In this document: positions 32,091-51,916 of the stretch, in pieces
Layout: every line of letters starts with the position of its first letter
Numbering within the stretch: the stretch's first letter is position 1
Assembly (NCBI RefSeq): GCF_001570725.1
Contig: NZ_BCNV01000001.1
Coordinates: forward strand, 2,170,001-2,234,000
Origin: Paenibacillus amylolyticus
GTDB lineage: Bacteria > Bacillota > Bacilli > Paenibacillales > Paenibacillaceae
Length of the DNA stretch: 64,000 nucleotides
Direction of reading: 5' to 3'
The notes under the pieces: model-generated
The model's database searches: none
Told to the model about the DNA's origin: nothing
What the model saw: the letters and a program-made list of their open reading frames with translations, nothing else
Position numbers and translations under genes: made by a program

Positions 32091-33443
32091 TTACTGTACC
32101 AAATGTTCCAGATCCGGCTGCAATTTGTTTCGCAGAACATATAGCATGATGGCACCAACAAGGAACGCGACGGCATCAGCAATGACAAGTGACCAGATCA
32201 CTCCATGAAAGCCGTTTGTTTGATTAGCGATATACAATACAGGAATTAGCGTAATTCCTTGAATGATGGACATTATAAACGCGGCGGTTCCTTGGGCTGT
32301 TGCTTGGAAGATCCCCATAAACAAAGAAGTCATTCCTGTAATGAACAAAGATAAGAAGGTCACATGAAGAATGTAGCTACCCATTTCTATTAATTGTGGG
32401 TCAGTCGTAAATAAACCAATCAAGTGGTCGGAGATCAGATAGACGATAACGCCGAACACGACGGCCAACCCCATAATAGATTTGATCGTAAATCCAATGG
32501 TTTGTTTCATGCGTAATTTATTCGCGGTAAATGAGAAGGCAATCAACGGCACGACTCCCTCGCACAAGCCCATCAGAATAAACTCGGGAAATTGCAATAA
32601 ACGTGATGAAATTCCATATCCCGCTATAGCCTGATCGCCATATTCGCTAAGAAAAAGGTTAAGAATAAGCGACATCGCACCCAAGAAAACACTCATAACA
32701 AAGACGGGAACTCCGATTTTGAATACGTTGCTCAGAATGTCCTTGGAAACCTTGAACCATTTTAGGGAGACGGTTAAGAATTGACTCTTATAACTCATAT
32801 GGAAAGCGTAGAATGCACTCGCAACCAAGTTAGAGATGACCGTAGCAGATGCAACTCCGATCACGCCCCAATGAAAGACAAAAATGAATATCGCATCAAG
32901 AATAATATTTATAGCAACACTGAGAATCATACCGATCATCGACGTGATTGCTGAACCTTCTGAGCGCACAATATTCTCCAGCGTGAAGAATAATATGACA
33001 AATGGTGAACCAATCAGCATAACCGTGACATAGTCTTTCGTAAATCCGAAGGACTCAGGCGTTGCCCCCAGCCCATGAACGATTGGCTCGATCAATGGGA
33101 GGCCCACAGCAATCACGATAAGTCCGAGAACTAAGCTGCTGTAAAAGGCAAATGAGGATACATGCTTCAGATCATCAGCCTTTTTCTCACCTAACAAACG
33201 AGAGATGAATGTACCGCTGCCGATGCCAATTAAGTTGCCAAGCGCCATAATGACCGCAAATAACGGCAACGTTAGTGCGAGTGCGGTTAACATGGCTGTA
33301 TTCCCCAGTGTGCCAAGGAAATAGGCATTCAAGATGGAATAGATGACACTCATTGAGGTGCCTAGCATCATTGGAACAGCAAAGTGGGCTACGGCTTTGG
33401 CGATTGGTGCTTTTTCAAAGTAATGGAGGTTTTCTGCATCCAT
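32091..33443 (-). CDS. MATE-family efflux transporter
   Basis: 450 residues from ATG 33443; a GTG three codons earlier is also possible. Twelve hydrophobic segments in two homologous halves. The N-terminal signature PIAKAVAHFAVPMMLGTSMSVIYSILNAYFLG and GNLIGIGSGTFISRLLGEKKADD are typical of NorM/DinF-type MATE proteins, which export cationic drugs using sodium or proton gradients. It is divergent to a TetR gene, and three copies of a palindromic operator lie between them, so it is most likely derepressed by its own substrates. Confidence 0.95.
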   Translation of the reverse strand: MDAENLHYFEKAPIAKAVAHFAVPMMLGTSMSVIYSILNAYFLGTLGNTAMLTALALTLPLFAVIMALGNLIGIGSGTFISRLLGEKKADDLKHVSSFAFYSSLVLGLIVIAVGLPLIEPIVHGLGATPESFGFTKDYVTVMLIGSPFVILFFTLENIVRSEGSAITSMIGMILSVAINIILDAIFIFVFHWGVIGVASATVISNLVASAFYAFHMSYKSQFLTVSLKWFKVSKDILSNVFKIGVPVFVMSVFLGAMSLILNLFLSEYGDQAIAGYGISSRLLQFPEFILMGLCEGVVPLIAFSFTANKLRMKQTIGFTIKSIMGLAVVFGVIVYLISDHLIGLFTTDPQLIEMGSYILHVTFLSLFITGMTSLFMGIFQATAQGTAAFIMSIIQGITLIPVLYIANQTNGFHGVIWSLVIADAVAFLVGAIMLYVLRNKLQPDLEHLVQ

Positions 33444-33476
33444 GTGAGTCACTACTTTCTTCGTTAATATTGATCT

Positions 33477-33562
33477 AATCTAACACCGTTAGATTGAAAC
33501 TTACAGTGTTAGATGTTATCATGAACCTATGAACCTGTAAAGCACAAACTTACACTGTTAGA
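33477..33562. promoter_or_regulatory. Three TetR operators between the MATE and TetR genes
   Basis: AATCTAAC-ACC-GTTAGATT (33477-33495), TTACAGTGTTAGA (33501-33513) and TTACACTGTTAGA (33550-33562) share a half-site, TGTTAGA or GTTAGA. Confidence 0.75.
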
Positions 33563-33579
33563 TAAAAGGGCGGATATCG

Positions 33580-34260
33580 ATGAAAAAACAGCAGCCTCAG
33601 ATTTCGGAAGATAAGATTTTGGAAACTTCGTGGGAGCTTTTGGCGGAGGAAGGCATCGAGAAATTCAGCATGAGACGATTGGCCGACAAGCTGGGGATTC
33701 AGGCTCCATCTCTATACTGGTACTTCAAGAGCAAGCAGACACTCTATCAACGGCTGGCCAACCAGATATCAAAAATTATTTTGGACGAGTTTCAGTCTGA
33801 AGGGGACTGGAAGGAACAGATGGAGGGGCTTGCGATCACCGTAAGGAGCGTGCTCAGCCGATACCCGTGTTCCACACAGCTCATGATGATGACGCTGCCC
33901 CACGAGCCGGATATGATCCGGTTCACCAACCGCATGCTGCTTTGTATGGAATCAACGCCATTAGAGCAAGAGCAGAAATTACAGGCCGTTCTCACGCTTG
34001 TGAACTATGTATTCTATTTCGTACTGGACGATTATCAGCATCAGCGCAATATCTCTGCTGTTCTTAAGGACCAGGAAGCACTTCAGGGTGAAGAGATGAT
34101 CAGCCTCCTGGACTCTATGAGTGAGAAGGAAGCTGGACTATTCAGCAGGATGTATAAGAATGGTCTGTTTGAGGTGATGGGGACCGACGGAGCGTTTGAG
34201 TTCGGCTTGAAGCTGATTCTGTTGGGCATCGAACAAGTGATAAAGGAAGAAGAGAAGTAG
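33580..34260 (+). CDS. TetR-family repressor of the MATE gene
   Basis: 226 residues; AAAGGGCGG precedes the ATG. Residues about 10-55 are the helix-turn-helix (FSMRRLADKLGIQAPSLYWYFKSKQTLYQRLANQ); the LYWYFKSKQ form and C-terminal length recall the TetR/TetR_C subgroup that controls drug efflux. It is divergent from the MATE transporter, with operators covering both promoters, so autoregulation is expected. Confidence 0.93.
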   Translation: MKKQQPQISEDKILETSWELLAEEGIEKFSMRRLADKLGIQAPSLYWYFKSKQTLYQRLANQISKIILDEFQSEGDWKEQMEGLAITVRSVLSRYPCSTQLMMMTLPHEPDMIRFTNRMLLCMESTPLEQEQKLQAVLTLVNYVFYFVLDDYQHQRNISAVLKDQEALQGEEMISLLDSMSEKEAGLFSRMYKNGLFEVMGTDGAFEFGLKLILLGIEQVIKEEEK

Positions 34261-34289
34261 AAGCTCATCGGATTCAAATGAATGGTATG

Positions 34290-34364
34290 ATCCCCTTAAG
34301 GTAGACAGTGGGAAAAGAGAACATTTTAGAATGATCTCAACCCTGTAAACCGGAGGGGATTTTT
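34290..34364. repeat. 71-base imperfect palindrome (terminator or MITE-like)
   Basis: Outer arms starting ATCCCCTTAAGGTAGACAG (34290-34308) pair imperfectly with CTGTAAACCGGAGGGGAT (34343-34360), and an inner hairpin, GAGAACAT and ATGATCTC, lies within. T's follow, so it may simply end the TetR transcript. The size and nested form also suit a small non-autonomous element. Confidence 0.5.
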
Positions 34365-34628
34365 GTTATACGAGGAGGACAGCTGGCTTTCGAGAGCAGT
34401 GTTCGAAAACAAATATCATGTCATGGGTAAGAAAATAGTCCCACAGAATGGGCTTACATATCATAGACTTTGCACAAAAAATCAATATATCTTAGATGGC
34501 GTGACGTTATGATCAATTGACGACAAAGAAAAATAAGGAAAACTTCCTATAAAGAAGGAGTTATAAATCAGCGATATAATAAAAGGAAACTTGTTCAACT
34601 ATTCTATTGATGTGGGGAGATTTTTTTA
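34365..34628 (+). other. Gene-poor gap before the pectate lyase
   Basis: No convincing gene. A 49-codon frame from TTG 34363 to TGA 34512 has GGAGGGG four bases upstream, but that motif is also an arm of the palindrome, so it is weak. A TATAAT-like sequence (34575-34580) and TGGGGAGA before GTG 34629 serve the next gene. Confidence 0.3.
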
Positions 34629-35890
34629 GTGAAGAAAGTGGCTAGTTTATTAGTGATTGGTTGCATGTTTACAGCATTGTTTATGACATTTTCTGTTTAT
34701 GCGGCCGGAAGTTCAAACATCTATTATATTGCTTCAACGGGTAGTGATACGAATGCAGGCACCAAAAATGCACCATTTAAAAGTATAACAAGAGCACAGT
34801 CAGCGGCATCTTCTGGAGATACAGTATACATTCGAGGAGGAGTGTACGACGATTTTGAGATGCAAGAATCGACAACACTTATAATTACGTACATGATATA
34901 ACAAAGAGCGGGATCACTTATGAAGCATATCCTGGAGAAAGACCGGTATTTGATTTTAAAAACGTACCAACGAATCTGCGCGTAGCAGCATTTTTTGTGG
35001 GGGATAAAGTAACCGACATCACATTCAAAGGATTCGATGTAATAGGTATCAAAGTAGGCGATCAAGCGCAATCGGAAGCTTTCAGAATTAGAGGACAAGC
35101 TGATTTTGTACATATGGCTGCTCATGATAATGAAGCTATTGGTTTCTACTATACTGGAAATGGAACAGGAACCGTTCTGAATTCAGATGCGTATAACAAC
35201 ATCGGCCCAACGCCACTATCTGCAGGAAATATTGATGGATTCGGTGCTCATGGAGGGGACGTCTCATTCATTAACTCCCGTGCATGGAATAATAGCGATG
35301 ATGGATTCGACAGTATCAGCTCCAAAGGGACTGTAATATATGACCATTGCTGGTCGTTTAACCATCGGGGCAATCAGGATGGGGTCGGCGACAAAAATGG
35401 ATTCAAAGTCGGGGGCTATGCCTATAGAACAAGCGGGTTCCCAGATACACTACCTGTTCACACGGTTAAGTATTCTCTTGCTGTGAATAATGGAGCGAAT
35501 GGCTTTTATGCCAATCATCAACCTGGACAATCAGCTACCTGGACGAACAACACAGCCTACAATAACAGTAGAGCAAATTTTGATATGCTGGAGCGTGTTA
35601 GTCTAACGGACATAACGAATATTCCAGGGTACAGAGAAGTATTACATAATAACATTGCGTTTACGGGTCGGGCAATCGTTAATGATAACAATTTGCCGGA
35701 GAATGTAACTAATAATTCGTGGACGATTAACGGAGGTCTTGAGATCACAGCTGATGATTTTGTGAGTTTGGATACAACTCAACTATCAGCGCCAAGAAAG
35801 TCGGACGGTACTTTGCCTGATGTTTCATTCATGCTTCCTGTATCTTCGAGTCCTCTTAGTCAATACAACTTAGGCTATCTTGCTGACTAA
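34629..35890 (+). pseudogene. PL9-family pectate lyase, broken by a frameshift
   Basis: The first frame runs from GTG 34629 to a stop at 34899-34901: signal peptide to about residue 26, then the parallel beta-helix entry (SNIYYIASTGSDTNAGTKNA, DTVYIRGGVYDDFEM). Homology continues in another frame from about 34874 (NTYNYVHDITKSGITYEAYPG) through VTDITFKGFDVIG to the end at 35890. A single missing base near 34872 explains both. The PL9 active site is intact in the second part: DDGFDS and NGFKVGG with the catalytic Lys, and calcium-binding Asp residues. The enzyme would cleave polygalacturonate outside the cell. It may be a true pseudogene or a sequencing error. Confidence 0.85.
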
Positions 35891-35905
35891 TCATTTGTGT
35901 GTTGA

Positions 35906-35940
35906 AACCGCTGGTCTTGATAAAAGATCGGCGGTTTTTT
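35906..35940 (+). terminator. Terminator after the pectate lyase
   Basis: AACCGC pairs with GCGGTT at the ends of an imperfect stem (35906-35936), followed by T's. Confidence 0.65.
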
Positions 35941-35946
35941 GATGTT

Positions 35947-36270
35947 TTGAACCAGTATAATCTGATCCGAATTGTGGTCGGAGATCTTCTGACTGTAGAA
36001 CAGTACACAACAATGGGACATATTCACAAGTTCGGTTCTTGCTTTTCAACTCAGCTTGCCACTGAATTTGGAGTCAACAAAAGTGCTATTACATCCATTA
36101 TCAATCGCTTGGTAGAACGACAATTGGTTGAGAGAAACAATGATCCAAATGATCGTAGAACAATCTACCTGTCCCTGACTGATGATGGAAAAGACCTTTT
36201 TCTCAGGCTTGATCGAAAACTTCGAGAACTTGTCCAACCTGTCATTTATATGATAATCAAGAGAAAGTGA
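35947..36270 (+). CDS. Short MarR-family protein, probably truncated
   Basis: The frame is open from about 35899, but the first part crosses a terminator, so TTG 35947 (107 residues) is a plausible start; it has no good ribosome site. The central winged helix is clear: STQLATEFGVNKSAITSIINRLVERQLVERNNDPNDRRTIYLSLTDDG. Complete MarR proteins are about 140-150 residues with helices at both ends. Here the N-terminal helix is short and the C-terminal dimerisation helices stop after VQPVIYMII, right where a 68-base palindrome begins. It is likely a remnant. Confidence 0.5.
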   Translation: MNQYNLIRIVVGDLLTVEQYTTMGHIHKFGSCFSTQLATEFGVNKSAITSIINRLVERQLVERNNDPNDRRTIYLSLTDDGKDLFLRLDRKLRELVQPVIYMIIKRK

Positions 36271-36338
36271 AGTGCACCCCTAGAATTTCATCGGATAAAC
36301 CAGGTGTTTATTCCAATGTCTATTCTGAGGGTGCACTT
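36271..36338. repeat. 68-base imperfect palindrome at the end of the MarR-like gene
   Basis: AGTGCACCC (36271-36279) pairs with GGGTGCACT (36329-36337), CTAGAAT with ATTCTG, and GGATAAAC with GTTTATTCC, so nearly the whole element folds. It could be a bidirectional terminator for convergent genes or a MITE/insertion-sequence scar that cut the MarR gene. Confidence 0.6.
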
Positions 36339-36343
36339 CTTTA

Positions 36344-37276
36344 TTATTCTAATTTTCTGAATCGATTAAAGCGCAGGAACTTGGGCAGTTGAATATGGTA
36401 AGATTTCAGCCCAAAGTACATCAGCATGCCTGACAACGTAATTAATCCACCTACGAATTGAAAAGCAGAGATGGTTTCTCCCAACAGTAGATAAGCCAGC
36501 ATAATAGCCAGAACGGGTTCACCGATAATGCCTACAGAAACCGTCGTTGCACCAATGGTTTTAAGAAGCAGATTGAAAATATACTGGCCAAAAATGGTGG
36601 GGATGATCGCAAGTAGTAGGAAGTACATCCAATCGGATGATTCGTAATTGGTCAAAGAAAGGTTATTCCATAAACTGTAGACCAGCAGGACACTTCCGCC
36701 AATAATAAAGACAACAACACTATATATATTAGCGTCGATTTTTCGACTCACTTTCTGTCCCACCAGCATATACGCCGACACCAGTATGGTTCCTATCAGT
36801 GACAGACCGTCTCCGATCAGAGCCTCTCTTGACACGCCAATATCTCCCCAGGCGATAATCACCGAACCGAATAGGGCGGTAATCAAACATAGCACGGTAG
36901 GTATACTTGCTCTTTCCTTAAACATAAAGTATGACCCGATCATCACAAACAAAGGTTGCAGCGCTAGAATGACCATGGAACTAGCCACAGAGGTATATAC
37001 CAGCGATTCCATCCAAAACAAGAAATATAGACCCAGCAGCAGGCCAGCCAGAAAAACTGTAATCCAATCCTTTGAATTCATTTTTAAGAAACGAATTGTT
37101 TTCCAAGGGATAAACGGAAGCATAATAATGGCTGATATATACAGCCTGTACATACCGGCTATAGCGGTCGGAGTATCCGAAGATTTGATCATGATTGAAG
37201 AGACGGATACCGACAAAATGGCGATAAAAAGCAATACATAAGGATGAAAAAGCAGCGACAATTTATTATCTTTCAC
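36344..37276 (-). CDS. EamA/DMT-superfamily transporter
   Basis: 310 residues from GTG 37276, which has TTTGGAGG seven bases upstream; the longer reading from 37315 lacks a site. Ten hydrophobic segments in two EamA repeats (LFIAILSVSVSSIMIKSS... and GDGLSLIGTILVSAYMLVGQKVSRKI ... GEPVLAIMLAYLLLGETIS). The family exports amino acids, drugs or metabolites; substrate not predictable. It lies divergent to an AraC gene (154 bases), which may control it. Confidence 0.92.
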   Translation of the reverse strand: MKDNKLSLLFHPYVLLFIAILSVSVSSIMIKSSDTPTAIAGMYRLYISAIIMLPFIPWKTIRFLKMNSKDWITVFLAGLLLGLYFLFWMESLVYTSVASSMVILALQPLFVMIGSYFMFKERASIPTVLCLITALFGSVIIAWGDIGVSREALIGDGLSLIGTILVSAYMLVGQKVSRKIDANIYSVVVFIIGGSVLLVYSLWNNLSLTNYESSDWMYFLLLAIIPTIFGQYIFNLLLKTIGATTVSVGIIGEPVLAIMLAYLLLGETISAFQFVGGLITLSGMLMYFGLKSYHIQLPKFLRFNRFRKLE

Positions 37277-37430
37277 ATATAAGCCTCCAAAGTTCTTATC
37301 CGGTCGTCTGTGCACAGGCTATTGTGATAAGTCAAAGATTTGATATAATAATATCATTATTTTTGTGAATTTCGTGCAAATAAATCGCTATATAATATAG
37401 ATATATCGTCAAAGAAAGGAACATCATAGC

Positions 37431-51790: not shown

Positions 51791-51810
51791 AAAACACCTC
51801 CAAATTATAT

Positions 51811-51868
51811 TGACTGACTGTCAGTCATATTGTATATTGAGCTTATAACATTGACTGACAGTTAGTCA
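51811..51868. promoter_or_regulatory. Two TetR operators between the MFS and TetR genes
   Basis: TGACTGAC-T-GTCAGTCA (51811-51827) is a perfect palindrome; TGACTGAC-A-GTTAGTCA (51852-51868) differs in one base. They are 41 bases apart. Confidence 0.85.
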
Positions 51869-51916
51869 AGTTGTACATTTAAACTAATATAAAGGAGTGA
51901 CAAAGGAGATCTGACA

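Follow-up and report, generated by a model that had tools for sequence, protein, structure and literature searches.

Naville and Gautheret (2010) described 'mobile attenuators', terminators located upstream of IS transposases, the IS3 group included, that curb transcription entering the element, and they proposed that the 5' and/or 3' terminators of IS may be exapted once the IS genes decay (PMC2965389). In the accessible sections of that paper, the exapted terminators are those found upstream of genes, and their origin is traced to IS 3' terminators (PMC2965389). IS1397, ISKpn1 and ISPsy8 are IS3-family elements that, according to the accessible part of their description, target REP palindromes (PMC1525189). 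REP/BIME repeats and MITEs are also short intergenic palindromes with a link to transposases.

Here we describe a Paenibacillus locus with two large palindromes, which are the left ends (LEs) of two different IS3-family elements. The elements agree with the IS3 family (NCBIfam NF033516) in an OrfB that scores far over the cut-off, in an OrfA with HTH domains, and in a flanking repeat of 3-5 bp at 36 of 52 sites; the window differs in that it keeps left ends only. They share with IS1397, ISKpn1 and ISPsy8 the insertion of an IS3-family element into a palindromic extragenic target (PMC1525189) and, as far as the accessible part of that source goes, differ in that the targets are the loops of intrinsic terminators of varied sequence and not a REP repeat. 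Compared with mobile attenuators as those sections portray them, the remnants of the type seen in the window are 5' left-end hairpins on the downstream side of genes, following insertion into terminators. They are also unlike REP/BIME repeats and MITEs in deriving from the left end of a full IS, and mobility of their own is unsupported. Judged by titles and the beginnings of abstracts, the open-licence literature yielded no report of IS3-family elements targeting terminator loops.

Two IS left ends between convergent genes

The window is the whole 64,000-nucleotide stretch of Paenibacillus amylolyticus DNA that was analysed, and comes from an assembly of 6.76 Mb in 15 contigs (G000). The features of the locus are:

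33580..34260, plus strand: tetR-type regulator, resident, left of the island; its stop is 23 bp ahead of palindrome 1
34263..36340, no strand: replacement island, common to G049 only among the 75 genomes searched
34283..~34368, plus strand: palindrome 1, solo LE1-type left end of an IS3-family element; its tip faces tetR
34371..34600, no strand: segment between LE1 and the PL9 piece; best matches in fetched loci are of 16-21 bases (E 0.18)
34601..35941, plus strand: gene for a PL9 polysaccharide lyase (start 34629) with a one-base frameshift; own terminator at 35904-35938
35942..36267, plus strand: piece from within a MarR-family regulator gene, lacking both ends; homology to relatives stops near 36247
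36268..36340, minus strand: palindrome 2, solo left end (LE2 type) from another IS3-family element; its tip faces eamA, 4 bp past the eamA stop
36344..37315, minus strand: EamA-family transporter, resident, right of the island

An earlier note on this DNA had reported two large palindromes around a decaying lyase and regulator. Both are present, with better limits at 34283-~34368 and 36268-36340. Folded as single-stranded DNA, palindrome 1 gives z-scores of -3.3 and -2.9 (plus and minus strand) and palindrome 2 of -6.7 and -7.8 relative to 200 shuffles, so both exceed what is expected by chance. Over 75 bases, palindrome 1 shares 88% identity with the LE of multi-copy elements in G068 (E 7e-21), and an element in G060 has an LE with 92% identity to palindrome 2 (E 3e-21). 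The outer arm of palindrome 1 is the terminal inverted repeat, and its inner arm contains GGAGGGG followed by TTTTT. When 75 genomes of the genus were searched, palindrome 1 had matches in 46 (E <= 0.1) and palindrome 2 in 63 (E <= 0.01).

The earlier note had held that single-copy palindromes would speak against a mobile origin. Neither family is single-copy, and each has diverged relatives in its own genome and many in the genus. Covariance models found type 1 in G000 at the window copy, at C4:147190, at C1:3689548 and weakly at C1:101284 (150 of 3423 first-look candidates scored), and type 2 at the window copy, at C3:92252 and weakly at C1:781976 and C9:96254 (150 of 1859 first-look candidates scored). 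The relative at C1:3689548 and a solo LE1 of G056 follow the same aminotransferase. For palindrome 2, copies in G000 are few and diverged, and no target repeat was seen by eye. The window gave no match to OrfA or OrfB (E <= 0.01), nor a right end of type 1 or type 2 (best E 0.14), and a search of the whole of G000 gave no type-2 right end. The suspected scar of a mobile element is thus real, since both palindromes are IS3-family left ends; it has to be read as two different elements, each following and facing a resident gene.

Palindrome 1 has the features of an intrinsic terminator, namely a hairpin (z -3.3), GGAGGGGATTTTTG, and a position 23 bp beyond the tetR stop, and a role as a substitute terminator is plausible for it. 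In the eamA direction palindrome 2 also forms a strong hairpin (z -7.8), yet its 3' side is CACTTCACTTTCTC. Since the eamA side has no good T-run, palindrome 2 is no more than a candidate for such a role. A simple terminator scan, which required a loop of 3-8 directly inside the counted stem, listed neither palindrome.

A replacement island and its cargo

That 34263-36340 constitutes a replacement island is well supported. Close relatives match the query 33600-34560 only up to 34248-34262 and the query 36340-37300 starting at 36340-36344, and tetR and eamA stand near each other without the island in G001, G054, G039, G040 and G068. The single carrier outside the window genome among the 75 genomes searched is G049 (Paenibacillus sp. 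LS1), in whose copy the MarR fragment is shorter by another ~207 bases. In G001, which belongs to the same species, the tetR-side and eamA-side matches lie ~157 bp apart and enclose a terminator and a remnant of a gene that, going by its sequence, we take to be csaA here and in the genomes that follow. Between tetR and eamA, csaA is found in G039, G040 and G068, and a terminator alone in G054; the window has no csaA. The patchwork of PL9 and MarR sequences stands where relatives have the terminator and csaA.

The island contains the PL9 piece with its terminator, the MarR fragment and both palindromes, and may have arrived by recombination at the two elements. Its segment 34371-34600 has no meaningful match among the fetched loci, and Rfam gave zero matches at E <= 1 across 33400-37400. 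The right half of a split tetR terminator was not found on the plus strand of the island with up to three mismatches allowed. More distant relatives have a terminator arm similar to the left flank GCTCATCGGATTC, which is suggestive only.

The PL9 gene is split into open reading frames at 34629-34901 and 34997-35890, and in G049 it is one open frame of 420 aa, with a length difference of one base near 34872. This comparison confirms the one-base frameshift that had been proposed there, for which a mutation and a sequencing error would account alike. The region 34601-35941 is homologous to G051 (79.8%). The intact G049 protein matches PF22842, a Pel9A-like beta helix profile (E 1.6e-44), and it matches the rhamnogalacturonan lyase 5olq (E 1.5e-56) more strongly than the pectate lyase 1ru4 (E 1.1e-26). 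The assignment to family PL9 therefore stands, and the former label of pectate lyase, judged on the G049 copy, is better replaced by PL9 lyase, perhaps acting on rhamnogalacturonan. The NSDDGFD motif and the GFKVGG segment, in which the Pel9A calcium site and catalytic lysine presumably lie, are unbroken in the window sequence.

The MarR reading frame (35899-36270) encodes 123 aa. Apart from the window and G049 copies, the MarR matches listed in the genus come from open frames 152-199 aa long, and their alignments are confined to residues 14-116, so the gene is short at both ends, as had been suggested. Full-length homologues ending at the same place, which the earlier note had named as counter-evidence, were not among them, and a scan of the named genomes for MarR relatives returned the G049 copy only. 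The tip of palindrome 2 supplies the TGA stop of MarR (T at 36268). The statement that palindrome 2 begins exactly where MarR is cut is nearly right, the homology ending ~20 bp earlier. What had been called a decay hotspot does hold a broken PL9 gene and a broken MarR gene, but as cargo of the island, and a part of the palindromes in causing the frameshift is unsupported. Comparison with relatives, which the note had proposed, showed the bracketed segment to be missing from close relatives. If the explanation proposed below is true, this part of the window is recast from a decay hotspot to a two-element replacement between convergent genes.

Full-length source elements in the genus

Full elements elsewhere in the genus are ~1.26-1.29 kb long, encode orfA and orfB, and start with the palindrome. 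The multi-copy sites that were opened in G023, G068, G004, G026 and G020 are all full elements. In full copies L074 and L083, OrfB matches NF033516 with 295 and 326 bits (NCBIfam cut-off 160) as well as the Pfam families rve and HTH_21, and OrfA matches HTH_Tnp_1/HTH_28. The tips of the LE and of the right end are similar inverted repeats. The flanking repeat at 52 sites is of 3 bp in 25, of 4-5 bp in 11 and of 0-1 bp in 16. The source elements are IS3-family elements, having OrfA and OrfB, inverted repeats and a short target repeat.

In full copies the LE has the form of a hairpin, with TGGTATTATCCCC or TGAAGTGCACCCC as its outer arm and terminal repeat. The inner arm ends in GGAGGGGATTTTTG(C/T)TATG or AGGGGGTGCATTTTTTATG, which comprises a ribosome site, a T-run and the start of orfA. 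The copies form a decay series of full, frameshifted, partial and solo forms.

Insertion into terminator loops

Fifty-six copies were classed as full (18 type 1, 38 type 2). In 52 of these (18 + 34) the right end could be located and both flanks were available; L179 and L192, for which no right end was found, and L086 and L181, in which the right flank is too short, were dropped. A strong hairpin was defined as a duplex between the left and right flanks of <= -12 kcal/mol with a loop of <= 20 nt, and a T-run as at least five T in eight bases on the 3' side. A strong hairpin is split at 25 of the 52 sites (6 type 1, 19 type 2); for control positions drawn at random from these loci the figure is 247 of 2160 (Fisher p 1e-10). 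A hairpin with a T-run is split at 19 of 52 (6 type 1, 13 type 2), compared with 17 of 2160 controls. These counts describe the fetched loci, which are a sample of the copies in the genus, and about half of the insertions fall outside any strong hairpin. Five of the 52 copies are of odd length (L012, L051, L185, L230 and the LE2 of L050, the body of L050 probably belonging to a neighbouring type-1 element); without them the counts are 24 of 47 for the hairpin and 19 of 47 for the hairpin with a T-run. A preference of the elements for terminator loops as insertion targets is well supported by these comparisons. An earlier loop score, based on pairs that cross the junction in the minimum-energy fold, separated the sites poorly (41/52 versus 1318/2160), and the duplex score was used instead.

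One orphan type-2 right end, L107 of G006, sits in what relatives show to be the loop of the tetR terminator: on the downstream side of tetR its tip follows ...CTTATCCGGTT, a place taken in relatives by the terminator ...CATCCGGTTATTGGATG..., and its orientation is opposite to that of most copies.

Some solo LE cores are nested in larger host hairpins, with arms AAAAAAAGCCC...GGGCTTTTTT in L203/L213 and CCACCGG...CCGGTGG in L251/L257, and look as if the IS body had fallen out of a split terminator. At another site, L197 (G001:C1 near 4034887), a full type-2 IS is flanked on its left by the left half of a different type-2 LE, as if an LE hairpin had itself served as a target.

Excess and placement of solo left ends

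Left and right ends were compared for type 2 only, with queries of equal length (79 bases) in 75 genomes. The LE query gave 197 matches in 69 of the 75 genomes and the right-end query 85 matches in 42. In genomes of three contigs or fewer, 29 of the 67 LE2s listed (down to E ~3e-10) have a right end and 38 do not, and 29 of these 38 show no trace of orfA or orfB. Thirteen of 41 type-2 right ends in the same genomes are without a listed LE, six of them at comparable E. Of the 56 copies that were classed as full, 54 have a right end that could be located. An excess of solo LEs over solo right ends is well supported for type 2.

With orthologues collapsed (by hand for type 1), a co-directional gene lies ahead of the tip at all eight LE1 solo sites and at 25 of 30 LE2 solo sites; one of the 30 (L264) has a weak OrfA trace. 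Full copies follow a co-directional gene in 10 of 18 cases for LE1 and, for LE2, in 24 of the 28 with a called gene (10 more are without one). Because full LE2 copies are as co-directional as the solos, insertion preference alone can explain the type-2 orientation, and orientation by itself is no proof of retention by selection. The window fits this arrangement on both sides, with LE1 23 bp past tetR and LE2 4 bp past eamA, each co-directional.

Eight genomes share an orthologous solo LE behind a gene that is presumably a sugar-ABC permease, with a T-run in all, and eight share one behind what is presumably ilvD, each name being taken from one member sequence. One solo LE is orthologous across eight species, though the DNA farther downstream has diverged.

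Retention of the hairpin and the T-run

For the retention test, the nearest full LE was randomly mutated and trimmed to the stem-loop, and hairpin stability was compared. All eight LE1 solos are more stable than the simulated median (trimmed; Fisher p 5e-7), as are 23 of 30 LE2 solos (trimmed, all sites; Fisher p 0.002). This all-site figure is the one to trust for LE2: a count of 21/25 (trimmed) used a hand-picked 25 of the 30 sites, leaving out L189, L195 and L212 (cut palindromes), L264 and L199, and an untrimmed version (LE2 24/25, LE1 8/8) also counted changes outside the stem. In the LE2 solos L189, L195 and L212 the inner arm is gone, and these three are less stable than the simulated LEs (p 0.92-1.0). 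In the window, the retention p value is 0.003 for palindrome 1 and 0.22, not significant, for palindrome 2 once trimmed.

A T-run is present in 17 of 25 LE2 solos, against 23.2 expected in the neutral simulation (18 of 30 with all sites), and this loss counts against selection for termination. Some of it may be mechanical, since the T-run is situated at the deletion border and the simulation does not include truncation there. In LE1 solos the T-run is present in 8 of 8, against 6.9 expected, which is not significant. Covariation is modest, with four pairs changed on both sides versus a shuffled mean of 1.8 (reached in 21 of 500) and one pair in each of two other covariation tests, and even where selection is absent, one arm of a palindrome can be corrected by the other.

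Origin of the palindromes and possible explanations

Taken together, the sequence comparisons lead us to consider it fairly probable that terminator-hunting IS elements leave their LE hairpins behind, plausibly as substitute terminators. Insertion would split the host terminator, after which the LE could take over termination. A transcript entering from the neighbouring gene would fold the LE into a terminator-like hairpin, hiding the ribosome site of orfA. As the element decays, the LE would stay. With LE1 after tetR, LE2 after eamA and these two genes convergent, this accounts for two different palindromes of like form that bracket the locus with their tips outward; the element bodies would have lain between them, where the PL9/MarR patchwork is now. 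We put forward tentatively, as possible rather than probable, a stronger proposal: an IS3-family lineage replaces host terminators by hunting their loops and bringing its own LE terminator, so that insertion is harmless, the transposase is silent, and the dead LE remains, a share of Paenibacillus terminators then being dead IS ends. If true, this would be a source of new bacterial terminators, and an IS would be tolerated by landing in a stop signal and supplying the replacement. It would also account for the scattered 70-90 bp palindromes at Paenibacillus gene ends.

The palindromes could instead be neutral left-overs of IS3-family elements without any function, the excess of LEs reflecting easier recognition or repair of one arm by the other. 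The LE2 solos, which lose the T-run beyond expectation and include three sites without an arm, speak for this explanation, and so do the weak covariation and the presence of every decay stage from full through partial to solo. Easier recognition fits poorly with the equal-length queries and with the location of a right end in 54 of 56 full copies of types 2 and 1, as there are nonetheless fewer orphan right ends than left ends. A solo LE that is orthologous in eight species beside diverged downstream DNA, and hairpins kept better than under random mutation, LE1 above all, also argue against neutrality, and we regard such left-overs as rather doubtful while giving them real weight.

We consider it improbable that the palindromes are two-tipped MITEs moved in trans by IS3 transposases. 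The inner arm does resemble the outer tip in palindrome 2, L017, L022, L208, L211 and L251, and by eye L017 has a flanking 3-bp repeat; the other symmetric solos show no such repeat in their flanks (by eye), the identical multi-copy sets in G023, G068, G004, G026 and G020 are full elements, and the end of palindrome 1 resembles an IS leader and not a tip. We set this explanation aside for lack of target repeats. That tetR and eamA simply have ordinary intrinsic terminators with a chance likeness to IS ends would suit hairpins at gene ends and the TTTTT after palindrome 1. It is refuted by the homology to IS, at 88% identity between palindrome 1 and the G068 LE and 92% between palindrome 2 and the G060 LE, and is extremely unlikely.

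Other palindromes in the window

Repeated TCTAACACNGTTAGA-like palindromes at 33471-33560, between tetR and a divergent MATE pump gene (32091-33452, minus strand), are probable TetR operators. Two near-perfect palindromic arms at 51810-51869, TGACTGACAGTCAGTCA-like and 24 nt apart, are operator-like.
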